Below are positions 25,108 to 39,751 of a stretch of DNA of 64,000 bases, piece by piece. This DNA is from Clostridiales bacterium (GTDB lineage: Bacteria; Bacillota; Dethiobacteria; Dethiobacterales; Dethiobacteraceae), in assembly GCA_018335855.1 (NCBI GenBank), contig JAGXRM010000027.1:1-64000 (forward strand), in the 5' to 3' direction. The notes under the pieces are model-generated. The model was not told the DNA's origin, searched no databases, and worked only from the letters and a program-made list of their open reading frames with translations. Position 1 is the first letter of the stretch, and each line of letters opens with the position of its first letter. The translations under genes were made by a program, and so were the position numbers.

Positions 25108-26160
25108 TCACCAGCCCTTCGAGATCGCTGTGATATGAACCTGCTCATCTTCGGTAATCTGAATTGCAAGGCCGCTGGTGATATGCACCTGCTCATCTTC
25201 AGTAATCAGAATTGCTTCCACTCCGGGTAGCGATTCTACCAGGGCAATACCCTGCTCTAAACCAAGAACAAAAACGGCCGTTGAATAGGCATCCGCAGTA
25301 AATGCGTCCGCAGCAACTACGGTGACGCTAATCAGTCCCCGGGCAGGCATCCCTGTTTGAGGATCTATAATGTGGTGATAACGTTCATCGTTTACCTGAA
25401 AATAACGTTCATAATCTCCGGACGTAACAATTGCACTGTCACGGATTTCCACAATGGCTGCAATATCTCTCCTGTCCCGGGGATGACGAATGCCGATACG
25501 CCAGGGTGTTCCGTCAGGCTTATCACCTAAAACACGGATATCTCCTCCCGCATCAAAATATGCGGAAGTGATTCCTTTATCCCGGAGAACCTCAACTGCC
25601 TTATCAATGATAAACCCTTTGGCAATGCCACCCAAATCTAATTCTACCCCGGCATGTTGCAAAAATACAGTGCCTGCTTCCCTGTCAACCTGAACCTGCC
25701 TGTAATCAACGAGATCAAGTGCTTCTGACAATTCTGCTTCGCCGGGGATTTGTGTATCGCCTGTCCCAAAACCCCAAAGTTTAATGAGCGGCGCAATCGT
25801 AATATCAAATGCGCCTCCGCTCAATTCCCCTACTTCAAGGGAGCGGATGATCACTTCCATTGCATCTACTGAAACCAGGACCTGTTCCCTGCCTGCAGCT
25901 TGATTAATTTTAGTAACATCCGAACCGGATATGTGCCTGTCCAAAAATTTTTCAAGCCTTGAGATCTCTCTGTACGCATAAGTCAGTGCTTCGTCTCCCA
26001 GCTTGGAATCCTTAGTATATATGAGGCTTTCCACAATCGTGTCCATCAGAAATTCTGTTCGTGTTACTTTTTTTGCATCACCGGCAGGACGGATGACTAG
26101 TATAAACAAGGCCGCAAGAATGGCCACAATGACAACGTATGGGATTAGTCTCTTTTTCAA
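25108..26160 (-). CDS. apbE: FAD:protein FMN transferase ApbE
   Basis: This 350-residue enzyme uses FAD to attach FMN covalently to Thr in S/TGAT motifs of target proteins such as RnfG, RnfD and FMN_bind lipoproteins. Family signatures: MDTIVE, FDITIAPLIKLWGFG, ELDLGGIAKGFIIDKA, DAGGDIRVLG, HHIIDPQTGMPA and the late TADAYSTAVFVLG. An N-terminal hydrophobic segment (about 6-24) without a clear lipobox cysteine anchors it outside the membrane. The last 30 residues contain a duplicated 16-residue unit (ITEDEQVHIT repeated). The start is TTG. Matching substrates are encoded in the rnf cluster about 10 kb upstream. Confidence 0.93.
   Translation of the reverse strand: MKKRLIPYVVIVAILAALFILVIRPAGDAKKVTRTEFLMDTIVESLIYTKDSKLGDEALTYAYREISRLEKFLDRHISGSDVTKINQAAGREQVLVSVDAMEVIIRSLEVGELSGGAFDITIAPLIKLWGFGTGDTQIPGEAELSEALDLVDYRQVQVDREAGTVFLQHAGVELDLGGIAKGFIIDKAVEVLRDKGITSAYFDAGGDIRVLGDKPDGTPWRIGIRHPRDRRDIAAIVEIRDSAIVTSGDYERYFQVNDERYHHIIDPQTGMPARGLISVTVVAADAFTADAYSTAVFVLGLEQGIALVESLPGVEAILITEDEQVHITSGLAIQITEDEQVHITAISKGW
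25130..25215 (-). repeat. Tandem 48-nt duplication in the apbE 3' end
   Basis: Two 38-nt copies (25130-25167 and 25178-25215) differ at only four positions and are offset by 48 nt, so the reading frame is kept and 16 residues are duplicated at the ApbE C-terminus. Confidence 0.85.
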
Positions 26161-26236
26161 GCGTCTCTCTCCCGTTTTATAGTATTTTACAGTGCAAGAA
26201 AAGGCGCTCTACGGCGCCTTTTCCATTTGTCTGTTT

Positions 26237-28507
26237 TTAGGCAAATTTCGTGTAATAAATCAGGATAAAGAGGAAAAGGCCCAACATCAGTGCCATCAGC
26301 AATGAGTCAAAATTGAGGTTTTTAATATTCCAATCCGAGGGGCGCCCTCGCATTCTGTCCCACAGGCTGCGGGAACGGTAGCCTGACTGCTCATACGCGT
26401 CATCCAGGGCGCCGTCCAGTTCAGCCGTTTTATTGACAAGCCGCTTGGCTGTCCGTCCGGATTTTTCATACGCATCGTTTAGTGCATCATCAAACCGCTC
26501 TGTTTGATTGACAAAGTTTCGTGCAACACTGCCGGACTTCTCATACGCATCGTTAATAGATGAGTCAAATCGTTCCGTTTGATTGACAATCTTTCGTGCA
26601 ACACTGCCGGATTTCTCATACGCATCATTAATAGATGAGTCAAATGAAGTAATATAGGTGCACATCGCAGATGCGACCTTCCCGGATTTCATGTATGTCT
26701 GGTTGATGGCCGTATCAAAAGAGGCTCCAAAGCGACAACATGTCTGGAAAAAGAAGCGGGTTAAAGGCAGATAGAACATGAATTCCACACTTAGCCATTC
26801 CGGTGGCTTCCAGGTAAATGCCCTGGCGTGATCAAGAATCAAGTAAAGAACTGCTGCAAGGATGAACACAATCAAAGGTTCTTTTAAATCCTGCCATGCC
26901 CAAACGTTAACGTGGGCCACATATGCAACATTTTTGGGGTCGAAGCTAAAGCCTGCTGCGGCGGGAATGACAAGACGGTTTAAAACAAATTCCGGGAATA
27001 CCCCGATTGCCAGAATGATTCCTGAATATAAAATCAGGAGAGACTTTATCACCCAGGAGACCTTAAAGGATTTTTCGTCGTCCTCAGGTCTTGTCCTGCC
27101 AAGAAACAGACCTTCGAACAATTTAGCAAAATAAACCAAAGTCATAGCACTGGCCAAAACGAACAATTTCTCAGCAAATAACAAGCTTTGCGCATGCCCG
27201 TATTTATGGGCATCTACGATAGCATGGTGCAAAATAGTCTTTGATACATACCCGTTTAAGCCGGGGATTCCTCCGATACCCGCATAAGCAATCAGGAAAG
27301 TGACTGCCACTAAAGGTACTTTCTTAAACATTCCCCGAACTTTTGTAATATCCACGTTAAGAGTAGTCAGGTAAATGGCACCGACCATCATAAAGAGAGC
27401 AGCCTTGAAAACGGAGTGGTTTATAATATGGTACAGAGAGCCGGCAAAGCCCATGGCACCTTTTTCATAGCCGAGAAAGGTGGCCACACCGATGCCCATA
27501 AGAATATACCCCATCTGACTAATACTGCTGCAGCCCAATATCCGTTTGGCGTTGTTCTGTAAAATGGCCAATGTGGCGCCAAGAAGCATCGTAATAATAC
27601 CCACCCAGATAATAGCAAAACCAATATACTTGACGATCTCCACACCTGCTACCGCTGCACCGGGAGTAGCAGGTGTGAAAACCATTGTCAGAATCCGTAT
27701 CATCCCGTAAGCACCTGCTTTAAGCATGGCTGCGGAAGAAATAGCGTTAACCGGGGACGGTGCTTCCTCATATGCCCTGGGCAACCAGATATGCAAAGGA
27801 GCCATTCCCATTTTAATGCCAAACCCAACGATAAACAAGGGAATAACCACCAGAGGATTGATACCGGCTGCCATAATTTCTTCCAGCAGCGGGGCCAGTT
27901 CCAGCGTTCCCACTCCCCAGTAGAGCATAAATATTCCCATCAGTAGTGACAGACCGCCGGCCACACCCATATAGATCATAATCGTACCAGCTCTGATAGC
28001 CTGTTCTGTCTGGCGGTGAATCACTAATACATAGGAAGAGAATGTCATTAACTCAAAGAATAGAAACAGACTAAACAGGTCGCCGGACAAAACTACACCC
28101 AGGCAATGACCCAGTGTTGAAAGCAGGAAAACATAAAAGCGGGTTTGGGAAGCCTCTTTCTTCATATAGACAGTGGCATAGATGGTGGCAAGCAGCCAGC
28201 TTCCGGCAAAGAGTGCGGCAAAAAGGAAGCTAAGAAAATCGGCGCGGAAAAACAAACCGTACTCCATGACATCTGCAAAATGATAAATTACAGTGCCGTG
28301 CTGCACCAACGGGTAAATAGCCAGCACCAGGCCAAATGTCACCAGAGCGGTCAGGACCGCCAGAGCACTACGAAACTTTTCCGCATAGAGACCGGCCAGT
28401 AGGACAAGCACAGACCCGGCCAAGGGGAAAAGCACCGCCACCACCGGCAGTAATGACGTGATTGTTTCAGTTGTCGCGTTAATTTCTTGTGCAGCTGCAA
28501 AGCTCAT
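26237..28507 (-). CDS. NuoL/MrpA-type antiporter-like subunit with five C-terminal 25-residue repeats
   Basis: This 756-residue membrane protein is of the complex I/Mrp proton-conducting family. The core (residues about 1-560) has about 14 helices, with Glu in FLFFELMTFSSYVL, Lys in GFGIKMGMAPLHIWLP and the PSPVNAISSAAMLKAG loop typical of NuoL/M/N and MrpA/D. After a further hydrophobic helix at about 540-560, residues 597-721 hold five 25-residue repeats (FDSSINDAYEKSG...), then a terminal helix. This places the repeats where NuoL and MrpA carry the lateral helix. It is the last gene of the mrp operon, 5 nt after the preceding antiporter gene. Confidence 0.88.
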   Translation of the reverse strand: MSFAAAQEINATTETITSLLPVVAVLFPLAGSVLVLLAGLYAEKFRSALAVLTALVTFGLVLAIYPLVQHGTVIYHFADVMEYGLFFRADFLSFLFAALFAGSWLLATIYATVYMKKEASQTRFYVFLLSTLGHCLGVVLSGDLFSLFLFFELMTFSSYVLVIHRQTEQAIRAGTIMIYMGVAGGLSLLMGIFMLYWGVGTLELAPLLEEIMAAGINPLVVIPLFIVGFGIKMGMAPLHIWLPRAYEEAPSPVNAISSAAMLKAGAYGMIRILTMVFTPATPGAAVAGVEIVKYIGFAIIWVGIITMLLGATLAILQNNAKRILGCSSISQMGYILMGIGVATFLGYEKGAMGFAGSLYHIINHSVFKAALFMMVGAIYLTTLNVDITKVRGMFKKVPLVAVTFLIAYAGIGGIPGLNGYVSKTILHHAIVDAHKYGHAQSLLFAEKLFVLASAMTLVYFAKLFEGLFLGRTRPEDDEKSFKVSWVIKSLLILYSGIILAIGVFPEFVLNRLVIPAAAGFSFDPKNVAYVAHVNVWAWQDLKEPLIVFILAAVLYLILDHARAFTWKPPEWLSVEFMFYLPLTRFFFQTCCRFGASFDTAINQTYMKSGKVASAMCTYITSFDSSINDAYEKSGSVARKIVNQTERFDSSINDAYEKSGSVARNFVNQTERFDDALNDAYEKSGRTAKRLVNKTAELDGALDDAYEQSGYRSRSLWDRMRGRPSDWNIKNLNFDSLLMALMLGLFLFILIYYTKFA
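26345..26719 (-). repeat. Five tandem 75-nt coding repeats
   Basis: Residues 597-621, 622-646, 647-671, 672-696 and 697-721 are exact-length 25-residue units. Units 2 and 3 are nearly identical (only two residues differ); units 1, 4 and 5 have diverged but keep FD/LD at the start, an aromatic Tyr at position 9 and SG at 12-13. Confidence 0.95.
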
Positions 28508-28512
28508 GTTGT

Positions 28513-29997
28513 TTATTGTCCTCCCCTGAGTAAGAATTCCGCCGCTACCCGGGACAAGTCAAAAGGCAGGTTGGTGGGCAACAAACCGAATAACAGACAA
28601 CTAACAGCTAAAATTGCTATGGGGATAAGCATTTTGTAGCCTGCTTCGTTGACTTTAACATGATCGTGTTCATGACCCGGTTCACCACCGAAGAAGGCTG
28701 AGATAATGATGGGTAAATAATAGAGACCATTTAAAAGGCTGCTAAGCAGAAGAACCAGCACATAGAAAGGAACACCGGCATCCATGGCGCCAAGGGATAA
28801 TGTCCACTTACTTAAGAACCCGTTAAAAGGCGGGATACCAATCATTGCTAAAGCGGCTAAAGTAAACGCAAACATAGTGAATGGCATCTGTTTACCGATT
28901 CCACCTAATTCCTTAATACTGCGCTTTCCCGTTTTTAAAATAATAGCGCCGGCGCAAAGGAAGAGGGTGCTCTTCATAAATGCATGACTGAAAATATGAA
29001 AAATATTTCCTATCAGTGCCCGCTCTGTAAGAATAGACATTCCCAAAAGAATATAGCCCATCTGGCCGATACTGGAATAAGCTAGCCGTCGTTTCAAATC
29101 ATCCTGGGTAATAGCAACAGCGGATCCGAGTAAGATTGTAATTACGGCTACCACAGCAAGGATGACAGTCCAACCTTCGCGCTGCATAAACTCAAAGCCG
29201 AAAACATGAAATATTACCCGTAACAACCCGTATGCTCCGGTTTTTAACATAATCCCTGAGAGCAATGCACTGGCAGGTGACGGCGCAACCGGGTGGGCGT
29301 CAGGCAGCCACACATGAAGCGGAAACATCCCGGCCTTCATCCCAAAGCCAATCAGGAAGGAAATAAAGGCGAAGAATGCCAGTGTTGAGGGCTCTTTGAT
29401 CAGCGTGGCGCCGCTTAACGTGACAGTGCCGGCAAGCTCAAACGTAATAATTATCCCAAAGAACAATGCCAGGCCGCCGATAATTGTCATAATAAGATAC
29501 TTATAACCGGCCCTCAGCGCTTCCACCGTCTCTTCATGGACAACAAGAACATAAGAGATCAGTGACATTAATTCAAAGAAAACAAATAGGGTAAACAGGT
29601 CGCCGGCCATAAAAATACCCATACAACTGGCCAGAGTAATAATCAGGACGGGATAATAGCGGTTACAGCCGTGCTCTTTACACATATAGTCCAGTGAATA
29701 GATGGCAACCATCATCCAGATAAATGAGGACAACAGTGCCAGTGAAAAACTTAGAATATCTACCCGGAAAGAAATATCCAGGCTTGGTAATAGTTGAAAC
29801 ATTTTATACTCAATGATGTTACCGGCCATGATATAAGGATAAAGTGCGGCCACAGACAGAAATGTCACTAAGGAAGTACCTACAGCCAATGCATTGCGCA
29901 TCTTCTCGGAGTGTTGTTCCACGTAGTAAATCACAGCTGTCATCACCATTGGGAACATGACAATCCAAACAGGTAGAAAAGAAGACGTAAATCTCAT
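28513..29997 (-). CDS. mrpD: MrpD/NuoM-like antiporter subunit
   Basis: This protein of about 494 residues has about 14 membrane helices and the proton-conducting signature: Glu in FVFFELMSLISYVLV, Lys in GFGMKAGMFPLHVWLPDAH, and SPASALLSGIMLKTGAYGL. It is one of three antiporter-like subunits encoded in a row and would form a Na+/H+ channel unit. ATG 29997 is preferred because AAAGGGAGATGATT matches the anti-Shine-Dalgarno over an extended stretch just before it; ATG 30009 overlaps that site. The central part resembles the neighbouring subunit at 30062-31552, so they are paralogs. Confidence 0.9.
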   Translation of the reverse strand: MRFTSSFLPVWIVMFPMVMTAVIYYVEQHSEKMRNALAVGTSLVTFLSVAALYPYIMAGNIIEYKMFQLLPSLDISFRVDILSFSLALLSSFIWMMVAIYSLDYMCKEHGCNRYYPVLIITLASCMGIFMAGDLFTLFVFFELMSLISYVLVVHEETVEALRAGYKYLIMTIIGGLALFFGIIITFELAGTVTLSGATLIKEPSTLAFFAFISFLIGFGMKAGMFPLHVWLPDAHPVAPSPASALLSGIMLKTGAYGLLRVIFHVFGFEFMQREGWTVILAVVAVITILLGSAVAITQDDLKRRLAYSSIGQMGYILLGMSILTERALIGNIFHIFSHAFMKSTLFLCAGAIILKTGKRSIKELGGIGKQMPFTMFAFTLAALAMIGIPPFNGFLSKWTLSLGAMDAGVPFYVLVLLLSSLLNGLYYLPIIISAFFGGEPGHEHDHVKVNEAGYKMLIPIAILAVSCLLFGLLPTNLPFDLSRVAAEFLLRGGQ

Positions 29998-30061
29998 ACT
30001 ATCAATCATCTCCCTTTGTCAAAAAATACAAATTCCAGCTCTCCCGATGATGTCAGTATGC

Positions 30062-31552
30062 TTATAGTAAGCCCAGAAGTGACTGGGCGGCCTTGGATAC
30101 TACCCCCAAGATTAATGAGGGGAAAACACCAAAGAGGATAACTCCGGAACCGAGCAGGATCAGGGAAACAACCATCTGCCTGGGAAGCGGCCTAGGTTCG
30201 GCCACAGCTCCTTCCGGTTCGCCGAAAAAAGCATTCACAACAATTGGCAAATAGTAAATTCCGTTTAGCAAGCTACTAACCAGAATAACGGCAGCGAAAA
30301 ATGGTCGACCCACATCGAGTGATCCCAGCGCCAGATACCATTTTGAGATAAACCCGTTCGTAATTGGAATCCCAACCATGGCAAATGCCCCCAGGGAAAA
30401 AGCTATTGTTGGTACCGGAAGTGTAATTCCAATACCTTTCAAGTCACTGAGCTTCCGTGTGCCGGTAGCATAAATAATTGCACCGGCAGACAAAAACAGC
30501 ATGGACTTCATAATGGCGTGGTTAAAAATATGCAGGATACCGCCTTGCAAAGCGGACTCACTCATCAGCCCCACACCAAGGAATACATAGCCAATTTGTG
30601 CGATACTGGAGTATGCCAGCATTTTCTTGATATCATCCTGTACGATGGCAAACATAGAGCCAATAATGATGGCAAGTGTGGCCATCCAGAGAATCATATT
30701 CATAATCGGTGCCATACCCAGCAATTCTGGAGGATATACTTTATAGAGAAGTTTAATCATGGCAATGGCGTATACTTTGATAACCAGCCCCGACAGTACA
30801 GCGGAGGAAGGTGACGGTGCTGAGGAATGGGCGTCAGGTAGCCAGACGTGGAGCGGGAAAAGGGCCGCTTTGACACCAAGGCCAACCAGGAAGAGGGCTA
30901 ATGACACCAGGATATTTAAGGGATATAAATCCATCACCTGGGGAAGCGCCTGTGCCACATAGGTGAAATTAAGATGTCCCGTGACCATGTAAATCATGGC
31001 GATGGCAAGGAGCAGGCACCCAGAGCCTACAGCCGATAACACTAAATACTTAAAAGCCGCTTCAATGCACTCCCGGCTCTCTTTAATCGATATTATGCCG
31101 CAGGATGCAATAGCACAGATTTCCACGAAAACAAACATGTTAAATAAATCATTTGTCAACACCATGCCAATCATGGACGCCATCAACAGCAGATAAAGGG
31201 TATAATACCAACCCATAACCTGCTCTTTTAACTCGTGTAGCAAATCCTGGGTCCCGTAGTAAATAACGATTAACCCCACTATTGTGATGGTCATCGTAGC
31301 AAAAACAGCAAGGTAATCAATGGAAAACTCAATACCCCACGGCGGCGCCCAGCTACCCATTTGGTACATAAAGGGGCCTGTAGTCATGACCTGCCACATC
31401 ATGTACAGGGACGCAATCAGTGAGAATCCGATGGCACCCAAGGTAGCCGGCACACACCATTCTTTTCGCCAACGCATAAGAAGAGGCATTAGATAGGCAA
31501 AGAGCAGAAGAACGACGACGGCTAGAACAGGGAAATGATTGACGATACTCAC
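30062..31552 (-). CDS. mrpD: MrpD/NuoN-like antiporter subunit
   Basis: This 496-residue protein has about 14 membrane helices, with Glu in NMFVFVEICAIASCGI, Lys in GLGVKAALFPLHVWLPDAH and PSPSSAVLSGLVIK. It is the first of three consecutive antiporter-like subunits. The GTG start overlaps the mrpC stop (GTGA) and has GGAGGTGA upstream, so translation is coupled to mrpC. Together with the other subunits it would form the membrane arm of an Mrp- or Mbh-like complex. Confidence 0.9.
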   Translation of the reverse strand: MSIVNHFPVLAVVVLLLFAYLMPLLMRWRKEWCVPATLGAIGFSLIASLYMMWQVMTTGPFMYQMGSWAPPWGIEFSIDYLAVFATMTITIVGLIVIYYGTQDLLHELKEQVMGWYYTLYLLLMASMIGMVLTNDLFNMFVFVEICAIASCGIISIKESRECIEAAFKYLVLSAVGSGCLLLAIAMIYMVTGHLNFTYVAQALPQVMDLYPLNILVSLALFLVGLGVKAALFPLHVWLPDAHSSAPSPSSAVLSGLVIKVYAIAMIKLLYKVYPPELLGMAPIMNMILWMATLAIIIGSMFAIVQDDIKKMLAYSSIAQIGYVFLGVGLMSESALQGGILHIFNHAIMKSMLFLSAGAIIYATGTRKLSDLKGIGITLPVPTIAFSLGAFAMVGIPITNGFISKWYLALGSLDVGRPFFAAVILVSSLLNGIYYLPIVVNAFFGEPEGAVAEPRPLPRQMVVSLILLGSGVILFGVFPSLILGVVSKAAQSLLGLL

Positions 31553-31935
31553 TGGATGTCACCTCCCCGGATGCGCATAATCTCTTCTGCGTCAATGGTG
31601 CCATAGTGTTTATAGAGTTTGACAATTAAGCTAAGCGCATAGGCGGTCACGCTGACGGCCACAACAATCCCGGTGAGAATCAGCGCCGATGGCAACGGAT
31701 TTACATAGGCAGTATAGGGAACGCCGGGCTCCAGGATTGGGGCCCGCCCACCATTGACGTATCCAATGGCAACAAAAAAGAGGAAAATTGATGTGTCCAT
31801 AATATTCATGCCGATGACTTTTTTAATCAGGTTATTATGGGAAAGCATAGTATGAAAGCCAATGATGAAAAGGATAATAGCAAAAAAATAATAGCTGTTC
31901 TGGTGTAGCCGCAGCAGAATATCAATCATGGTCAT
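31549..31935 (-). CDS. mrpC: MrpC/NuoK-like subunit
   Basis: This 128-residue protein has three membrane helices and the NuoK/MrpC pattern, with FFAIILFIIGFHTML, the short loop NNLIKKVIGMNIMDTSIFLFFV and, after the loop with PYTAYVNPLPSALILTGIVV, the third helix. NuoK-type subunits carry buried acidic residues that take part in ion coupling. ATG 31935 has GGGGAGG 9 nt upstream. It overlaps mrpB by 14 nt and the downstream antiporter gene by 4 nt, consistent with one operon. Confidence 0.9.
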   Translation of the reverse strand: MTMIDILLRLHQNSYYFFAIILFIIGFHTMLSHNNLIKKVIGMNIMDTSIFLFFVAIGYVNGGRAPILEPGVPYTAYVNPLPSALILTGIVVAVSVTAYALSLIVKLYKHYGTIDAEEIMRIRGGDIQ

Positions 31936-32365
31936 GGCTATGATCCTCCCCTTCGATTAGGCTGTAGAACAGCGTAATCATGGTGCTGGCCACTTTAACG
32001 CCCACACCAAACGTGATAATCATGATGGCGCCGCTGCTAAACAGATTCCCCGGGGTACCGATGGGAATGCCTGCGACCTTGTTGCCTAAAAAGTTTGTCC
32101 CCAGCAGAATTGCAAAAATCCCCATCCCGGCAAAAAGCAATGCTCCGCCACTTTCCAACGCAGATGAAACATCGTGTGAAAGTTTTTTGGAACCGGCCGA
32201 GAGATTAAAGGCCAGGGCATATAGTATCATACTGGCACCGATAATAGCACCGCCGGAAAAACCGCCGCCGGGCGAAAGATGGCCATGCAGAACTACATAA
32301 AGCCCGTATAACTGCACAAACGGCAGAATAATTCGGGTTACATAACGTACAATAATATCTTCCAC
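31922..32365 (-). CDS. mrpB: MrpB (MnhB-domain) subunit
   Basis: This 147-residue protein of about four membrane helices has the MnhB signature FVQLYGLYVVLHGHLSPGGGFSGG and GASMILYALAF. In MrpB and MbhF proteins the HGHxSPGGGFxGG loop is nearly invariant. The start is GTG at 32365 with GGGGGG about 8 nt upstream. A His/Asp-rich C-terminus (EDHSHDHD) extends into the mrpC start and could bind metal, though it may simply be an overlap artefact. Confidence 0.92.
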   Translation of the reverse strand: MEDIIVRYVTRIILPFVQLYGLYVVLHGHLSPGGGFSGGAIIGASMILYALAFNLSAGSKKLSHDVSSALESGGALLFAGMGIFAILLGTNFLGNKVAGIPIGTPGNLFSSGAIMIITFGVGVKVASTMITLFYSLIEGEDHSHDHD

Positions 32366-32388
32366 AGATAAGTCCCCCCACTCCGACG

Positions 32389-32661
32389 TTAATGCGCTTT
32401 CAGATTGGAAATAGCGGCGGCGATAGCCACAAACAGGACTGTAGCTTCACCAAGCGTATCAAAGGCGCGATAATCTGTAATAATGCTGGCAATCACGTTA
32501 AGCGCACCGGTTTCTTGCAGGCTGTCTTCTAAATACCTTTGGGGCACTTCATTGTTAGTTATATTCATCGGATCACCAATGGGAGGCATCTCCAGCACCG
32601 TGGCCACCAACGCTACGGCGATTACGGCCAGGAAGATGAAAACTAAAAGTTTGCGCATCAT
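32389..32661 (-). CDS. MbhE-like subunit (C-terminal module of MrpA)
   Basis: This 90-residue protein has an N-terminal hydrophobic helix, a hydrophilic middle with RYLEDSLQETGALNVIASII, and a C-terminal helix containing DYRAFDTLGEATVLFVAIAA. That ETGxxN...DYRxFDTLGE pattern marks the MbhE family, which forms the very C-terminal part of MrpA in canonical Mrp complexes. Here it is a separate gene. ATG 32661 or the adjacent ATG 32658 is the start; a GGAGG is nearby. It overlaps the preceding gene's stop. Confidence 0.88.
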   Translation of the reverse strand: MMRKLLVFIFLAVIAVALVATVLEMPPIGDPMNITNNEVPQRYLEDSLQETGALNVIASIITDYRAFDTLGEATVLFVAIAAAISNLKAH

Positions 32662-32897
32662 TCTTCCCTCCTTGTCTTAGTGATAGCGGCCACCAAAAGC
32701 AGTGTAGTTACGCCGGCGCCGATGGCAGCTTCTGTGATAGCAATGTCAGGTGCGGCCAAAAGCTGCCAAAGTATGGCCATAATCAGGCTGTACGCGGCAA
32801 AAATAATTACCGCAGATAACAGATCCCGGGTCTTTGCCACGGCAATGGCACAGACAACAAGGAAGAGCAGCAGCAAGTACTTGAGTACTTCAGTCAC
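32658..32897 (-). CDS. MbhD-like subunit (DUF4040)
   Basis: This 79-residue protein has three hydrophobic helices and the DUF4040 signature LLSAVIIFAAYSLIMAILW followed by APDIAITEAAIGAGVTTLLL. In canonical Mrp systems this domain lies within MrpA; as a separate protein it is called MbhD in archaeal Mbh hydrogenase. The start is GTG at 32897 with AAGGGG upstream; the longer frame to 32978 only overlaps mrpG. It overlaps mrpG by 8 nt. Confidence 0.9.
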   Translation of the reverse strand: MTEVLKYLLLLFLVVCAIAVAKTRDLLSAVIIFAAYSLIMAILWQLLAAPDIAITEAAIGAGVTTLLLVAAITKTRREE

Positions 32898-33222
32898 GGC
32901 ACTGCACCCCTTCCGTCTTGTCCAACTCATAGGAGCCTTCACAAACTTTAATCTTATTCCGGTATGCAGCACGGGCAATCACGTGGGCAGAGGTGGGGTT
33001 CGTTAACCAGATAAAGAGAATCATAAACATCAGCTTTACACTGGCATTGGAAAAGCCCGAATATAGGACAAGGGCAAACAGAATCAGCCCGGCACCTAAC
33101 GTATCGCATTTTGTGGTGGCATGCATCCGGGAATAAACATCGGGAAGCCTGAGCAGGCCGACAACTCCGACGATAAAAAAGAAGATTCCCGCAACCAGGA
33201 TCGGTATAATTATAAAGCTCAT
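32890..33222 (-). CDS. mrpG: MrpG subunit
   Basis: This 110-residue protein has about three membrane helices and the MnhG/MrpG signature FFFIVGVVGLLRLPDVYSRMHATTK plus DTLGAGLILFALVLY and the C-terminal NPTSAHVIARAAY. ATG 33222 is selected by AAGGAGG 8 nt upstream. MrpG stabilises the small-subunit side of the complex. It directly follows mrpF with a 13-nt gap. Confidence 0.92.
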   Translation of the reverse strand: MSFIIIPILVAGIFFFIVGVVGLLRLPDVYSRMHATTKCDTLGAGLILFALVLYSGFSNASVKLMFMILFIWLTNPTSAHVIARAAYRNKIKVCEGSYELDKTEGVQCRD

Positions 33223-33235
33223 CGCTTGTGCCTCC

Positions 33236-33505
33236 TTACTCCAATGCGCCCTTTTCCATATATTTAGCAATACCGATAGTCGTTATAAAGCTGATTAACG
33301 CGTACACTAAGGCCACATCCAAAAAGAACTCCTGGTGAAATACAAGTGATACTAATGCAATTATAACGACCGTCTTGGTGCCAACGATATTAATAGATAC
33401 AACCCTGTCAGCCTCGGTCGGCCCCACCACAGCGCGATACAGGCATAAAAATGCTGCCGCTGTGAGAATTACCGCTGTTACAATAAAACTCTGTTCAAGA
33501 AACAT
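33236..33505 (-). CDS. mrpF: MrpF subunit
   Basis: This 89-residue protein has three helices. The family motif LYRAVVGPTEADRVVSINIVGTK is present; in MrpF the xGPxxxDRxxxxxxxG loop with its Asp is functionally important for sodium transport or bile-salt efflux. A following segment reads FFLDVALVYALISF. ATG 33505 is selected by its upstream GAGGAG; the frame runs further to 33529 only by overlap. It overlaps mrpE by 11 nt. Confidence 0.92.
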   Translation of the reverse strand: MFLEQSFIVTAVILTAAAFLCLYRAVVGPTEADRVVSINIVGTKTVVIIALVSLVFHQEFFLDVALVYALISFITTIGIAKYMEKGALE

Positions 33506-34007
33506 CTTTTTCCATCTCCTCGATCTCAATCAGCCTGTCCATCATGTACCAGGCAGAAACATCTTCTGCATTGGCACGGGTTATGGCATGAACGATATAA
33601 ACATCGTCTTCCACCTCAACTGTCAATGTTCCCGGCGTTAATGTGATTGAGTTAGCCAAAATTACCCGGTTAACGGGTTTTTTTACGTTTGTCCTAAACT
33701 TTACAAAACCAGGAGAGATGTCTAGCTTCGGATTCAGAACAATGGCCGCCACGCCCCAGTTAGCTTTAAAAATCTCCACCACCAGGATATAAAAATAGCT
33801 AATCCATTTTTTTATTGTTGTTTTTAAAAAAAGTGGTCGTTCCGCCGGGTCTAACAGAATATCCTGGTTGAAGTGTGCGACTCCGAATGAACAGAGAATA
33901 CCCACCAGCAAGTGCTGCCAGTGAAAACGCCCGGTAATCAGTATCCAAAATAGTAAAAGAGTCAGAAATGTGCCCCAAAACGTATAGCTATACTTCTTCA
34001 CGTTCAT
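33495..34007 (-). CDS. mrpE: MrpE subunit
   Basis: This 170-residue protein has two N-terminal hydrophobic segments and the conserved MrpE C-terminal domain: [17 protein letters not shown], the strand [12 protein letters not shown], and [21 protein letters not shown]. MrpE is needed for assembly and stability of the antiporter. ATG 34007 lies inside the moaC 3' end (20-nt overlap), so it is translationally coupled to moaC. Confidence 0.92.
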
Positions 34008-34497
34008 CCCCGCTCTCTCCTTCCAGCCTACGGAAATATCCTGATTTGCCGCCCTGCTTTTCTATGAGTCGAATATTTCCGATAACCATATTTTTATCTA
34101 TGGCCTTACACATGTCGTAAACCGTTAAACCAGCCACGGAAACAGCAGTTAGAGCTTCCATTTCCACACCGGTCTTCCCCGTCGTGCTAACTTTGGCCTC
34201 AATTTCCAGGCGGTGATCTTCCCAATGATAAGCAAACGTAATATTGATTCCTGTCAGGAATAGCGGGTGACACATGGGCACAAGCTGCCATGTCTGTTTC
34301 GCTGCCAAAATTCCCGCGACCTGGGCAACAGCAAGGACATCCCCTTTGGCAACACCGCCGTCAGCAATTCTTTGCAGTGTAGAGGAAAGCATGGTAACAT
34401 CTCCCCGTGCCACAGCGATACGGATTGTATCCTGCTTGCCGGAAACGTCAACCATTCTGGCCCGTCCGTCATCATTGATATGTGTTAACTTATCCAT
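33988..34497 (-). CDS. moaC: Cyclic pyranopterin monophosphate synthase MoaC
   Basis: This 169-residue enzyme converts the MoaA product 3',8-cH2GTP to cyclic pyranopterin monophosphate in molybdenum cofactor synthesis. Signatures: [34 protein letters not shown] (with the catalytic His), [23 protein letters not shown] and the catalytic lysine in [12 protein letters not shown]. The protein is of full length. The context is unusual: it heads the mrp operon, no other molybdenum cofactor gene is in the window, and its 3' end overlaps mrpE by 20 nt. Confidence 0.96.
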
Positions 34498-34536
34498 GTT
34501 TCCTCCGTCATCGCTTCACGTCTGCACGCAACCTTA

Positions 34537-34565
34537 AGTGTACACCCGGCACAATATGTTGTCAA
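34537..34565 (-). promoter_or_regulatory. Sigma-A promoter of the moaC-mrp operon
   Basis: On the minus strand, TTGACA (34560-34565) and TACACT (34537-34542) are exactly 17 nt apart, about 40-60 nt before moaC and downstream of the rnfB terminator. This makes moaC-mrp a unit separate from rnf. Confidence 0.8.
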
Positions 34566-34627
34566 CGGAAAAACCTTCAAGTAAATACCCTCACTGGAAA
34601 GTACAGCACATCATTTACTGCAAATAC

Positions 34628-34662
34628 TAGAAGTGGTGCGAAAGGAATCCTTCCGCACCACT
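34628..34662 (-). terminator. Hairpin after rnfB, likely terminator
   Basis: AGTGGTGCG (34632-34640) pairs with CGCACCACT (34654-34662), with further pairing inside the loop. The minus-strand T run after it is weak (TCTAGTATTTG), so termination efficiency is uncertain. Confidence 0.6.
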
Positions 34663-34668
34663 GTTTAT

Positions 34669-35451
34669 CTAAGCAATAGTGTTGCGCGGGCAGACTTCCA
34701 CACAAGTGCCACAGTTCGTACAGATATAACTGTCGATAATCGCCAGGTTGTCTTCCATCCTGATAGCATCGGCCGGACAGTTCTTCACACAAAGCCCGCA
34801 GGAGATACAACCCCGCTCACAAACTTCCCGGACTTGTTTTCCTTTGTCCTGGGACTTGCACTGGACATAGTGGTAAGTCTTACTGTTAATCAGGTCAATA
34901 ACCTGACGCGGACAGGCATTCTTGCACTTCCCGCAGCTGATACAGGCGTCTTTGTCAATGATGGGTAACCCTTTTTCACTCATGGTAATCGCGTCAACCG
35001 GGCATACCCTGACACAAGTTCCCTGACCCACACAGCCGAAACGACAGGCGCTGGGGCCGCCGCCAAACATCAAAGCAGCCTTACACTCGGGCACACCGTG
35101 ATACGTAAACTTTTCCTTGGCTACGGCACAGTCACCCAGACAGACCAATTGTGCCACATGTCTGGCTTCCGCTTCTGGTGCCGCCATCCCCATTAATTCC
35201 GCAATCTTACCAGACACCGCACTGCCACCCGGCGTACAGCCGGTCACGGGAGCATTTCCTGCTACTACTTCCTCTGCGAACTGCGCGCAGCCCGCATATC
35301 CACAGGCACCACAGTTGGCACCGGCAAGGTATTCCTGAACCATCTGGACCTTCGGGTCTATTTCAACGGCAAATTTCTGCGCGGCGAAAGCCAGCACACC
35401 GCCAAAAAGCAACCCTAAAGCGCCCAGACTGATGATTGCTACTCCGATCAT
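34669..35451 (-). CDS. rnfB: Rnf complex iron-sulfur subunit RnfB
   Basis: This 260-residue protein has an N-terminal membrane helix (about 3-25), then the CGACGYAGC...C four-cysteine motif of the Fe-S domain, and four ferredoxin-like CxxCxxCxxxCP clusters (near residues 140, 170, 215 and 245). RnfB accepts electrons from reduced ferredoxin and passes them into the membrane part of Rnf. It is the last gene of rnfCDGEAB, the common Clostridia order. Its length and cluster number are typical for acetogen/Clostridia RnfB. Confidence 0.95.
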   Translation of the reverse strand: MIGVAIISLGALGLLFGGVLAFAAQKFAVEIDPKVQMVQEYLAGANCGACGYAGCAQFAEEVVAGNAPVTGCTPGGSAVSGKIAELMGMAAPEAEARHVAQLVCLGDCAVAKEKFTYHGVPECKAALMFGGGPSACRFGCVGQGTCVRVCPVDAITMSEKGLPIIDKDACISCGKCKNACPRQVIDLINSKTYHYVQCKSQDKGKQVREVCERGCISCGLCVKNCPADAIRMEDNLAIIDSYICTNCGTCVEVCPRNTIA

Positions 35452-35470
35452 ATTATATATTCCTCCTTGG

Positions 35471-36046
35471 TTACATCATGCCCTGGAATCCCGTAAAGGC
35501 AATGGAAAGGATTCCGGCGATAATCAAAGCGAGGGAAACACCCCGAAAGTGCTCAGGGATAAAGACCAGTTCCAATTGTTCCCGAATCCCGGCCATAATT
35601 ACCAGTGCCAGCGTAAAACCAATAGCCGCTGCAACACCAAAAACGATGGCTTCAAACAAGGTGTAACCAATTTGAATATTCAGGATCGCCACACCAAGCA
35701 CGGCACAGTTGGTAGTAATCAGGGGCAAAAAGATCCCCAAAGCCTGGTATAGTGTGGGGCTGACCTTACGAATGACCAGTTCCACAAACTGAACCAGGGA
35801 AGCGATAACCAGGATGAAAACGATGGTGCGCAGATACTCCAGGCTGTTGGGGACAAGAACATAATACTCAAGCAACCAGGTCACCAGCGAGGCCATCCCC
35901 ATTACGAACGTAACGGCCATACCCATGCCGACCGATGTCTCGACCTTCTTAGAAACGCCAAGAAACGGACAGATACCAAGGAATCTGGAAAGCACAAAGT
36001 TGTTAATGAAAACGGCACCGAAAAAGATTGTAATAATATTCGCCAC
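35471..36046 (-). CDS. rnfA: Rnf complex membrane subunit RnfA
   Basis: This 191-residue protein has six membrane helices. It carries the family motifs FINNFVLSRFLGICPFLGVSK and LITTNCAVLGVAI, each with a conserved Cys. In Rnf, the RnfA/RnfE pair holds a membrane-embedded 2Fe-2S centre between inversely oriented halves. The start is GTG at 36046 with GGAGGGG upstream, 14 nt after rnfE. Confidence 0.96.
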   Translation of the reverse strand: MANIITIFFGAVFINNFVLSRFLGICPFLGVSKKVETSVGMGMAVTFVMGMASLVTWLLEYYVLVPNSLEYLRTIVFILVIASLVQFVELVIRKVSPTLYQALGIFLPLITTNCAVLGVAILNIQIGYTLFEAIVFGVAAAIGFTLALVIMAGIREQLELVFIPEHFRGVSLALIIAGILSIAFTGFQGMM

Positions 36047-36060
36047 AGTCTACCCCTCCT

Positions 36061-36660
36061 TTACTCCAGCTTGTATTTCTTAGCTAACATATTCATTAAC
36101 GCCATCATCAGTCCCAGGGCAATAAACGCACCGGGGGGAAAGCCGAAAACTTTAAACGGTTGGTAACCGGAGCCCAGAATATTGACTGAAAAAATTGTAC
36201 CGTTACCTAACAGCTCCCGTACTGTTCCCAGCAATGTTAACGCCACTGTAAAGCCGAGCCCCATACCCAAGCCGTCGGCGATGGAGTTGGTTACAGAATT
36301 CTTAGAAGCAAATGCTTCTGCCCGGCCCAGGATAATGCAGTTAACCACGATTAACGGCACAAAGATTCCCAACTGGGAATGGAGGCCAGGTTGATAAGCC
36401 TTGAGGAGCATATCCACCATGGTAACAAAGGTGGCAATGATGATAATGAAGGCGGGGATGCGAATTTTATCAGGAATCGCCTTCCGTAACACGGCAATTA
36501 CCAGGTTGGAAGAAACCAGCACCGCTGTGGTGGAAAGACCCATACCCAGACCGTTGGCAGCCAATCCGGTAACAGCAAGCGTGGGGCACATGCCCAATAC
36601 CAGCCGGAAGACCGGGTTCTCTTTTACAAACCCCTTGGAAAAATTACTCATAACATTCAT
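36061..36660 (-). CDS. rnfE: Rnf complex membrane subunit RnfE
   Basis: This 199-residue protein has six membrane helices and is a homolog of RnfA with opposite topology. Motifs ENPVFRLVLGMCPTLAVT and PLIVVNCIILGRAEAFAS carry the conserved cysteines. The C-terminus LNMLAKKYKLE is cytoplasmic-type basic. It follows rnfG after 14 nt. Confidence 0.95.
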   Translation of the reverse strand: MNVMSNFSKGFVKENPVFRLVLGMCPTLAVTGLAANGLGMGLSTTAVLVSSNLVIAVLRKAIPDKIRIPAFIIIIATFVTMVDMLLKAYQPGLHSQLGIFVPLIVVNCIILGRAEAFASKNSVTNSIADGLGMGLGFTVALTLLGTVRELLGNGTIFSVNILGSGYQPFKVFGFPPGAFIALGLMMALMNMLAKKYKLE

Positions 36661-36674
36661 TTTTTCACCTCCGG

Positions 36675-37481
36675 CTACTGCGTCAGCGCATTTAACACGG
36701 CCTGCATGATGGCATCACTGCTCATCGTAGCACCACTTGCCGCATCAACCTGCACTGACTGCTTTGTGATAATCTCATCACGTACCGACTCCGCTTTCGC
36801 AAAACGGTCGGGAGTTTCATTATGATCCAGAATCTTCACGTCAGTAATTTTACCGGAAGCCACGGTGACTTCCACGGTAATATCGGATTTAAACCCGGCC
36901 GCTGTACCGGTGTATGTGCCGTCGGCCACAGCATCCAGACTAAATGACGGTGCGGCTGCACCCTCGGCACCCAAAAAGCGCACCGAAATATCCTGTAATG
37001 CTTTTTTTACACCGTTTTCCATGGCACGGGCAGAAATGGTTGCACCGGAAATGGTGTCTACTTTGAAGTCGCTGTCTGCAGTCAGTCCTTCGTATTGCTT
37101 ACGATATCCTGCTTCTGTAATTTTTGCGCCCAGACCCGGCGTCTCAGAGTGTTCAATAATGTCAAGCTCCACAATTTTACCTTCGCCGTCAACAGCTAAG
37201 TTAAAGCGAATGGTGCCACCGTAGCCCTCAGCCCGGCCTTCGGCCAGAACGCCGACCATCTTGCCGCCAGCATCAAATCCTACCGTGCCGGCTTGACCAT
37301 CGACAGTCTGGTCTTCCAGTTTATCCACTGTGGGGAAAAGGCGCTGCATGGATGAGACTTTGGCCTTTTCTTCATTTATCCTGATAATCTCGGATGTTAC
37401 ACTATTGGTAACCGCCAGGGCACCTGCTGCCACAGCACAAATAATCATCAGTGTTATAGCGAGTTTTATAATATCTTTCAT
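36675..37481 (-). CDS. rnfG: Rnf flavoprotein subunit RnfG with two FMN-binding domains
   Basis: This 268-residue protein has one N-terminal membrane helix (about 6-26) and two extracytoplasmic FMN_bind domains. Domain 1 (about 60-170) has the covalent FMN motif SGATIS at 145-150. Domain 2 (about 185-268) has SGATMS at 249-254. Classical RnfG has one such domain. Both target threonines (T148, T252) are present, so ApbE may load two FMN. It overlaps the rnfD stop by 4 nt (ATGA). Confidence 0.94.
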   Translation of the reverse strand: MKDIIKLAITLMIICAVAAGALAVTNSVTSEIIRINEEKAKVSSMQRLFPTVDKLEDQTVDGQAGTVGFDAGGKMVGVLAEGRAEGYGGTIRFNLAVDGEGKIVELDIIEHSETPGLGAKITEAGYRKQYEGLTADSDFKVDTISGATISARAMENGVKKALQDISVRFLGAEGAAAPSFSLDAVADGTYTGTAAGFKSDITVEVTVASGKITDVKILDHNETPDRFAKAESVRDEIITKQSVQVDAASGATMSSDAIMQAVLNALTQ

Positions 37482-38401
37482 GAGCTTGTCACCTCCCCAT
37501 ACTTTCTGGGTAGCGTCAGATTATCAATAATGGGAGTAACGGCATTCATGAGCAAAATCGCGAAGGTGACGCCTTCGGGATAAATCCCGTATAAACGAAC
37601 CAGCATCGTCATTACGCCGCAGCCGATACCAAAGATTAATTTGCCGCGCGGGGCAACCGGTGAGGTGACCATGTCGGTGGCCATAAAGAGTGCCCCCAGC
37701 ATGACTCCGCCGGCAAGAACGTGGAACAGCCCGGTGGAAATCATACTCATAACAGAACCGTAGCCTTGCAACAGAGTGCCCATCACAAATACTGTTCCGA
37801 TATATCCGCCCGGGATACGCCAGTCTATGTGGCCTTTATAGAAAAGCCAGGCGGCTCCCAGAATCAAGGCGAAGGCGCTTGTTTCTCCCAAAGAACCGGG
37901 GATAGCACCCACAAACAAATTCATAAAGCTGGTAGACGCCCCTGCCAGCGGTGTTGCCGCCGTGGCTAAATCGATGGGACGGACCCAACCGGTCATATGG
38001 CCTGCCCAGGAAATCATCAGTATGGCCCGGGCAACTAAGGCCGGATTAAAAGTATTATTGCCAATGCCGCCAAACACGTGTTTACCAATAGTAATCGCCA
38101 CAACCCCACCGATAACAACGAGCCACCAGGGTGGTGCCGGCGGCAACACCATTGCCAGCAGCAACCCGGTTACAGCGGCGCTACCGTCGCCGAAAATATT
38201 TTTTTCTCTGAGAATCACCGCTTCCGCGACCATGGCGGAAACCATTCCAAGAACCATGGTTATAAGCCCCCGCCAACCAAAAAAGATCACACCTGCCAAA
38301 GCGGCGGGGAATAATGCCACAAGCACGTCAGTCATCACACTTTGTATAGATTCCGGTGTACGTATATGTGGTGATGAAGATACGACAAGTTTAAATTCCA
38401 T
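37478..38401 (-). CDS. rnfD: Rnf flavoprotein membrane subunit RnfD
   Basis: This 307-residue NqrB/RnfD-type protein has about nine membrane helices. The start SSPHIRTPESIQSVMTDVLVALFPA and the block GGIGNNTFNPALVARAIL are characteristic. The expected FMN-carrying Thr lies in IDLATAATPLAG, a TAAT variant of the S/TGAT motif. RnfD passes electrons through the membrane and is part of the ion-translocating core. It follows rnfC after 27 nt. Confidence 0.94.
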   Translation of the reverse strand: MEFKLVVSSSPHIRTPESIQSVMTDVLVALFPAALAGVIFFGWRGLITMVLGMVSAMVAEAVILREKNIFGDGSAAVTGLLLAMVLPPAPPWWLVVIGGVVAITIGKHVFGGIGNNTFNPALVARAILMISWAGHMTGWVRPIDLATAATPLAGASTSFMNLFVGAIPGSLGETSAFALILGAAWLFYKGHIDWRIPGGYIGTVFVMGTLLQGYGSVMSMISTGLFHVLAGGVMLGALFMATDMVTSPVAPRGKLIFGIGCGVMTMLVRLYGIYPEGVTFAILLMNAVTPIIDNLTLPRKYGEVTSS

Positions 38402-38428
38402 CTGTTCTCCCTCCTTTACCCAAGCTGA

Positions 38429-39751
38429 TTACTTCCGGCGCTTTGCTGCAATGTCGCCCTTTGCCATACGGATCCACTGAACCAGGGGCCGCTTGGCGGG
38501 ACAGATATATGTGCAGCAGCCGCACTCAATGCAGTCCATCGCGTTATATGCTTCTGCTTTTTCATACAATCCCTGCTCTACCGAGGCGCCGATAAAGAGT
38601 GGCATAATGCTGACCGGGCAAACATCAACGCATTTTGCACAGCGAATGCAGGGTGAGATTTCGTACAGGTTAACCTCAACATCGGTTAAACAAAGAATTC
38701 CTGATGTTCCCTTAATAACCGGGAGGTTATCAGGCCCGGGCTGTGCCAGTCCCATCATAGGGCCGCCAAGCACCATTTTTTTGATATTCGGCCTAAACCC
38801 GCCGCACTGCTCGATGACTTCCTCAATAAACGTGCCGACACGGACCAGCATATTCTTCGGTTCGGTGATGCCGGAGCCGGTGATTGTGACAATTCGCTCA
38901 ATCAATGGCTTGCCGAACCGCACCGCGTCGGATATGGCAATACATGTCCCCACGTTTTGCACGACACAACCTACGGCCGAAGGCAGACCGCCGGATGGCA
39001 CTTCCCGTCCGGTGAAAACGCTGATTAACTGTTTCTCCGCACCTTGCGGGTATTTTGTATGCAGTGCGTGGACTTCAATGTTGGAGATTCCTTCGGCCGC
39101 CTTTTTCATCACTTCCACCGCATCAGGCTTGTTGTCCTCAATGCCGATATATCCCATAGGAGCATTGACGGCTTTCATGACAAGCTGCAAGCCAATAACG
39201 ATTTCCTCGGGGCGCTCCAACATGGCACGGTGGTCTGCAGTCAAATACGGTTCACATTCTGCCGCATTAATCAGGACATAGTCAATCTTCGTGTCAGGCG
39301 GGGGGGAAAGCTTTACATGGGTTGGGAATGTTGCACCGCCCATGCCAACGATTCCCTTTTCGCGAATAATCTTTTTCAACTCATCGACAGTCAAATCTCT
39401 GTAATTCGGATTCGGTTGTACATCCTCATGCCAGGTATCCTGACCGTCTGATTCGATAAACACAGACTGGACAGGACGGCCGAGCGCATGATTGCACATG
39501 CCGATTTTCACAACCTTGCCCGATACACTAGAGTGGACCGGTGCGGAAACAAATCCCTTGCTGTCTCCAATTTTCTGACCCATCTTCACTTCATCACCGA
39601 CAGCAACCAGCGGATCACACGGCGCACCAATATGCTGCGACATGGGAATTGCCACTGTTGTCGGCGGACGGGCGGGTACCACAGGCTTTTTCTCCGTAGC
39701 ACTTTTAAAATGCCCGGGATGGACGCCACCCTTAAACGTTTTAAAGCTCAT
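38429..39751 (-). CDS. rnfC: Rnf complex NADH-binding iron-sulfur subunit RnfC
   Basis: This 440-residue protein is the NAD-binding entry/exit subunit. It has an N-terminal GGVHPGHFK segment, a Rossmann-like flavin/NAD region with IVGMGGATFPTHVK and LINAAECEPYLTADHR, an SLBB-type part, and two 4Fe-4S clusters in the C-terminus (CIRCAKCVDVCP and CIECGCCTYICP). ATG 39751 follows GGGGTG. It opens the rnfCDGEAB operon. The full set implies ferredoxin:NAD+ oxidoreductase with Na+ or H+ pumping. Confidence 0.96.
   Translation of the reverse strand: MSFKTFKGGVHPGHFKSATEKKPVVPARPPTTVAIPMSQHIGAPCDPLVAVGDEVKMGQKIGDSKGFVSAPVHSSVSGKVVKIGMCNHALGRPVQSVFIESDGQDTWHEDVQPNPNYRDLTVDELKKIIREKGIVGMGGATFPTHVKLSPPPDTKIDYVLINAAECEPYLTADHRAMLERPEEIVIGLQLVMKAVNAPMGYIGIEDNKPDAVEVMKKAAEGISNIEVHALHTKYPQGAEKQLISVFTGREVPSGGLPSAVGCVVQNVGTCIAISDAVRFGKPLIERIVTITGSGITEPKNMLVRVGTFIEEVIEQCGGFRPNIKKMVLGGPMMGLAQPGPDNLPVIKGTSGILCLTDVEVNLYEISPCIRCAKCVDVCPVSIMPLFIGASVEQGLYEKAEAYNAMDCIECGCCTYICPAKRPLVQWIRMAKGDIAAKRRK

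Follow-up and report, generated by a model that had tools for sequence, protein, structure and literature searches.

What does a tandem repeat array do at the C-terminus of an antiporter subunit, and what sets its length? The question is raised by L, a 756-aa antiporter subunit of NuoL/MrpA type encoded at 26237..28507 of the window, by which we mean the whole 64,000-nucleotide stretch of DNA analysed here. All genes, repeat units and membrane helices given below with window coordinates are on the minus strand.

A 25-residue repeat between two membrane helices

The C-terminal array of L comprises five 25-residue units at residues 596–720, the first of which opens at residue 596 with SFDTAINQ. 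The five units were present as the original prediction had described them, in a register one residue away from the one given there (26345–26719). Unit 1 (SFDTAINQTYMKSGKVASAMCTYIT, 26648..26722) is of an N-capping type and clusters with the first units of other species, and unit 5 (ELDGALDDAYEQSGYRSRSLWDRMR, 26348..26422) is of a C-capping type and clusters with their last units. Between them lie unit 2 (SFDSSINDAYEKSGSVARKIVNQTE, 26573..26647), unit 3 (RFDSSINDAYEKSGSVARNFVNQTE, 26498..26572), which is a recent duplicate of unit 2, and unit 4 (RFDDALNDAYEKSGRTAKRLVNKTA, 26423..26497), delimited by sequence and unit comparison. The units had been called exact, which is true of their length and not of their sequence: any two share 5–22 of 25 residues and 27–67 of 75 bases. 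The most similar are units 2 and 3 (67/75 nt); the two differences previously counted between them hold in the earlier register and become three in the present one.

Two methods recovered the period. Tandem Repeats Finder independently reported period 75 with a score of 271 in the L gene, and autocorrelation of the C-terminal region of the protein was best at lag 25 among lags 5–44 (z = 17 vs shuffles). An assembly error, a source that the original prediction had itself raised as a danger, was rejected: the units have diverged from one another, and over 50 further genomes carry the same array, among them the single-contig assemblies G022, G186 and G324.

The core of L is a Proton_antipo_M domain (residues 141–436, E=6.7e-56). 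In alignment A1 of L proteins E152, K232 and K423 are invariant and K263 is conserved in at least 90%; these probably correspond to the channel residues Glu of TM5 (E152), Lys of TM7 (K232), Lys of TM8 (K263) and Lys of TM12 (K423). A DUF2712 match in L (E=0.34) was dismissed as noise. Hydropathy peaks at residues of about 541–560 (TM15, 26828..26887) and 733–751 (TM16, 26255..26311) bear out the claim that two membrane helices flank the array. Hydropathy and periodicity together thus give L two extra C-terminal TM helices with amphipathic periodicity between them, and the tail NIKNLNFD...YY at TM16 is nearly invariant in the home family (alignment A2). The order of TM15, array and TM16 is the order of TM15, lateral helix (HL) and TM16 in MrpA, MbsH' and HycC, so the array does stand in the lateral-helix position, as proposed.

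A unit profile was built from 259 distinct units from several classes of Bacillota: x-[FLM]-D-x-[AS]-[LI]-[DN]-x-[AF]-Y-E-K-[ST]-G-x-x-A-R-x-L-A-[DE]-[RK]-[TS]-x. Across these units Y10 is conserved in 98%, D3 in 94% and G14 in 85%, and all three are kept across L proteins that are only about 40% identical. Spacing is exactly 25 in 213/213 adjacent unit pairs. Hydrophobicity and conservation alike gave a Fourier maximum at k=7 per 25 residues (3.57 residues per turn), and the mean hydrophobic moment of a unit was 0.40, vs 0.17 in shuffles. Because both measures peak at seven turns per 25 residues, we read each unit as an amphipathic helix of exactly seven turns; the periodicity fits a helix whose phase must be kept. 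The expectation that successive units present the same face was therefore sustained. The companion suggestion, that SG pairs might break the helix, need not hold: G14 is well conserved and shares a face with Y10, D3 and D/N7, while the units contain hardly any proline (5/6475 residues).

On the unit helix the most conserved face, with Y10, D3, G14, D/N7 and A21, adjoins the hydrophobic face and exceeds it in conservation, as would be expected of protein–protein contact. This favours a reading in which the units make up a coiled-coil or helical bundle in the cytoplasm, with helices that fold back or pair between protomers, and dock a partner such as RnfC/RnfB or another copy of the complex instead of forming a membrane rod. 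A length of 25 residues, as 7+7+11, would also be a near-straight coiled-coil period, and the HL is used in the dimer interface of MBS. We nevertheless consider this reading unlikely, if a serious competitor: no turn-forming segment or proline lies between units, the array has a membrane helix on either side, like a lateral helix, and neither a coiled-coil or bundle family nor a solved structure matches well. The best match in a PDB profile search with the repeat units was a designed protein (E=0.007), and 34 three-unit stretches gave no consistent Pfam family, only weak scattered matches. Our preferred reading, in which we place somewhat better than even confidence, is that the repeats are an enlarged, modular HL of a NuoL/MrpA-type subunit belonging to an Rnf-associated Mrp complex.

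The rnf–mrp gene cluster and its reduced forms

L lies within a contiguous rnfCDGEAB–moaC–mrpEFG–A1–A2–BC–D2–D–L–apbE supercluster (25108–39751). The complete rnf operon directly upstream had been missed in the original prediction. Its domain assignments were made on homologs at loci L112 and L115: rnfC (38429..39751; RnfC_N/Complex1_51K homologs in L112 and L115), rnfD (37478..38401; NQR2_RnfD_RnfE homolog in L112), rnfG (36675..37481; FMN_bind homolog in L115), rnfE (36061..36660) and rnfA (35471..36046; both with Rnf-Nqr homologs in L112) and rnfB (34669..35451; ferredoxin-domain homolog L115:8031-8828). All six genes are thus present, in the standard order, beside antiporter genes; the textbook Rnf operons known to us are without antiporter-like subunits. 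An ORF at 33988..34497, which we take from its sequence to be moaC, lies between rnfB and mrpE and is conserved there in many relatives.

The mrp genes follow: mrpE (33495..34007), mrpF (33236..33529), mrpG (32890..33270), a DUF4040/MbhD-like piece A1 (32658..32978, its real start probably downstream), an MrpA C-terminal/MbhE-like piece A2 (32389..32661), mrpB (31922..32365) and mrpC (31549..31935). Domain and homology searches identified the next two as antiporter subunits, D2 of MrpD/NuoN type (30062..31552) and D of MrpD/NuoM type (28513..30009). Directly downstream of L is an apbE flavinyltransferase gene (25108..26160; ApbE E=1.4e-92); the ApbE family flavinylates RnfD/RnfG. Compared with the canonical seven-subunit Mrp (CPA3), the B, C, E, F, G and D subunits are all here, but MrpA, canonically one piece, is split into L, A1 and A2, and there are three antiporter-like subunits instead of two. 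With NuoL/ND5 of complex I, L shares Proton_antipo domains, a probable long HL and TM16, and both systems have three antiporter-like subunits. The cluster differs from complex I in that nuoB/C/D/H/I are absent, every gene from rnfC to apbE being rnf, moaC, mrp or apbE.

Between rnfB and moaC we noted a 14-pair terminator-like stem-loop (34662–34632) and, just after it, a promoter-like site (TTGACA-17-TACACT, 34565–34537); as pattern matches both are weak evidence. With these two elements parting rnfB from moaC, rnf and mrp in the window may be separate transcripts, which tells against our preferred reading.

The repeat profile was scanned against 398 genomes, all of them Bacillota, and matched 29. 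Nearly all matches were long antiporter-like frames; the exceptions were a 121-residue contig-end fragment of a broken paralog (G000:C37) and a split L in G393. The search of other large subunits for the unit, proposed in the original prediction, turned up the array in orthologs throughout the class and in other Bacillota, several classes being represented. In the window and most relatives, repeat-bearing L genes sit in rnfCDGEAB–mrp(–apbE) superclusters. The genes next after rnfB are moaC/mrpE, D or L at 50 loci, counting that of the window, at a distance of up to about 0.5 kb save for one gap of 0.7–0.85 kb. Among the newly found repeat genomes, L adjoins mrp or D genes in 18/18; a full rnf operon is present in 11/18, and only an rnfG-like gene lies upstream in the other 7, all of family f25, as is G114. 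At the f25 loci L092, L145, L146, L148 and L150–L153 a lone rnfG/FMN_bind-like gene precedes the mrpE–L cluster.

Six genomes (G007, G008, G009, G015, G106 and G414) are reduced to Rnf+D+L and have no mrpG anywhere in the genome, a form that needs at least two separate changes on a quick tree. Reduction goes further in G006 and G011, where a PF00361 search found one antiporter gene per genome, L itself, directly after rnfB. The Rnf+D+L genomes and the rnf–mrp superclusters suggest, from gene content and order, an antiporter arm that would be coupled physically to Rnf. A larger claim can be framed on this: that in these Bacillota Rnf and an Mrp/complex-I-type arm, independently joined to this redox module, make up one enzyme, an Rnf-driven multi-antiporter ion pump whose brace is the helix of 25-residue units and whose minimal core is marked by Rnf+D+L and Rnf+L. 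We hold it tentatively, and judge it rather more apt to be wrong than right.

MBS and FHL share the plan of a redox enzyme with an Mrp-type arm; their redox partner is a hydrogenase-like module, whereas for L it would be Rnf. Searches of the open-access literature (subscription papers being outside their scope) found no description of an Rnf–Mrp gene cluster. Papers that place Rnf and Mrp within one genome did turn up (for example PMC6305446, PMC10373932 and PMC3017947), with no passage found in them that presents the genes as one cluster.

The window's own genome also carries an mrp-type cluster with no rnf (L099, contig C38, 50.5–68.5 kb). It encodes seven antiporter-like subunits, in the order D2, D, L700, D, D, D, L810, and similar clusters occur at L098 and L102. 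No obvious redox module was seen in the ORFs flanking the L099 cluster. By eye, the C38 proteins seemed to show a faint 25-residue echo.

Length, growth and loss of the array

The original prediction suggested that the array could have grown to reach across the three antiporter subunits encoded here. In MbsH' and HycC, whose extension runs TMH15–loop–HL–TMH16 as in L, published HL length matches antiporter number (PMC7684303, PMC9474812). L does not follow this rule, a difference that counts against our preferred reading. Clusters with three antiporter subunits (D2, D and L) have 3–7 units with a mode of 5 (31 genomes), and clusters with two (D and L) have 6–7 in four home-family genomes. G106, a fifth and distant two-antiporter case, has a degenerate array whose autocorrelation still peaks at lag 25. 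Even within one genus and with the same gene set, there are 6 units in G004 and G017 and 7 in G013. Repeat number compared among close relatives thus does not follow antiporter number, and reach across three antiporters is not what sets it.

The 110 Å helix of complex I braces three subunits. At 1.5 Å per residue four units already measure 150 Å, so that a simple taut rod fits badly. The free variation in copy number also lends something to the docking bundle discussed above, since it would not be expected of a rod held at its two ends. One way to rescue the published scaling would be for each complex to hold several copies of D or D2, with one roughly 37-Å unit for each; 25 residues at 1.5 Å make 37.5 Å, close to the third of 110 Å that we would allot to each complex I antiporter. 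We find this hardly credible, given the 6 and 7 units found with one gene set in one genus, and complex-I-type arms in which one subunit recurs are not known to us.

Array length changes by whole units. Across the home family the anchor-to-anchor distance is 134, 159, 184 or 209 residues, corresponding to 4, 5, 6 and 7 units, with one or two proteins a single residue off these values, and gaps inside the array in ortholog alignments are mostly whole units. This upholds the earlier suggestion of growth by unit duplication. For a first or last unit the nearest sequence is its counterpart in other species, whereas an internal unit often resembles most an adjacent unit of its own gene; units 3 and 4 of G013, for example, are identical at 70/75 nt. 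With terminal units orthologous between species and internal ones duplicating within lineages, the array is fixed at its ends, TM16 being kept along with the end units, and grows and shrinks in its middle.

Such recent internal duplicates, including units 2 and 3 of the window, are also what would be seen if the array were a nearly neutral slippage spacer, uniform through recent duplication and gene conversion and not through selection for a helix. This is very unlikely, since not one of the 213 unit pairs departs from 25, D3, Y10 and G14 persist in highly diverged proteins, the terminal units are orthologous between species, and the repeats and TM16 are missing together where D has been lost. 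The last point comes from G006 and G011, whose L stops soon after TM15 and lacks both the repeats and TM16. On a quick tree it nests within repeat-bearing relatives, so the loss of both is derived.

Chimeric L proteins occur in G005 (L096) and G003 (L097). Their cores are of another lineage, with 30–32% identity to G012 L, their last 60 residues are 80–90% identical to it, and in G005 the adjacent D shares 90% identity with that of G012. On these alignments, the C-terminal repeat/TM16 module appears to have moved onto another L core. With the core replaced and the C-terminus and (in G005) D kept, the module seems to follow its partners and not its core. Taken together, the loss in G006 and G011 and the chimeras lead us to infer that selection acts on the last unit plus TM16 for their contact with neighbours of D type.

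Predicted structure, proposed role and paralogs

AlphaFold2 was run on L, at full length with 22 alignment rows and on residues 536–756 with 9 rows. The array was predicted as mostly helix, and the fragment as one 134-residue helix, with pLDDT of 30–51 over the array and a fragment pTM of 0.17, hence no usable tertiary structure; these scores weigh against our preferred reading. The best fold matches of the full model, which rest mainly on the core, were MrpA (7qru_A, 6z16_A), MrpD and complex I L chains, the MrpA chains being the best that bear an HL. The HL of MrpA (PDB 6z16, 7qru) is amphipathic, lies between TMH15 and TMH16 like the L array, and braces the neighbouring antiporters; the source papers describe it as a single helix, and no mention of repeats was seen there (PMC7419157, PMC9568556), whereas L has 3–7 units, varying among close relatives.

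Under the enlarged-HL reading, the lateral helix of L would have been rebuilt from seven-turn units, and the array would run beside the D-type neighbours on the cytoplasmic face of the membrane. TM16 and the last unit could act as a clamp holding D. The internal units would then be an adjustable overhang, a surface extension tolerated rather than specified, with a number not fixed by the antiporters bridged; they may project towards either Rnf or a second protomer. The antiporter arm as a whole is probably coupled to Rnf.

Whether the HL of complex I is a coupling rod or a passive brace has long been debated. A natural series of 0–7 units in the same helical phase, with 1–3 antiporters, makes the HL question testable by comparing or swapping natural variants. 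Of greater interest than the array itself is the conserved Rnf–Mrp association with its natural reduced forms. If Rnf is physically joined to the arm, anaerobes (here a Dethiobacter-like lineage) would have a new route from ferredoxin oxidation to an ion gradient, and the modular assembly behind complex I would have an independent case.

The repeat module was confined to L proteins from Rnf/Mrp-type clusters and to their near paralogs. We rejected the idea that HLs in general have a 25-residue period, none being found in six non-Rnf L paralogs from related organisms (z between −2.5 and 0.5). Neither of two solitary repeat-bearing paralogs (L109, L110) has rnf or another antiporter gene within the 14–17 kb of sequence obtained there, a further point against our preferred reading. 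The one at L109 belongs to the window's own genome, as a second repeat-bearing L broken inside its repeats at the start of contig C16 (L109), with a matching C-terminal piece at the end of contig C37 (L161), so that it appears split between the two contigs; with the break inside the array, its copy number is not readable from this assembly. Two L-type genes stand at the cluster end in G041 (L093) and G023 (L086); in G041 the first is without 25-residue units and the second has four.
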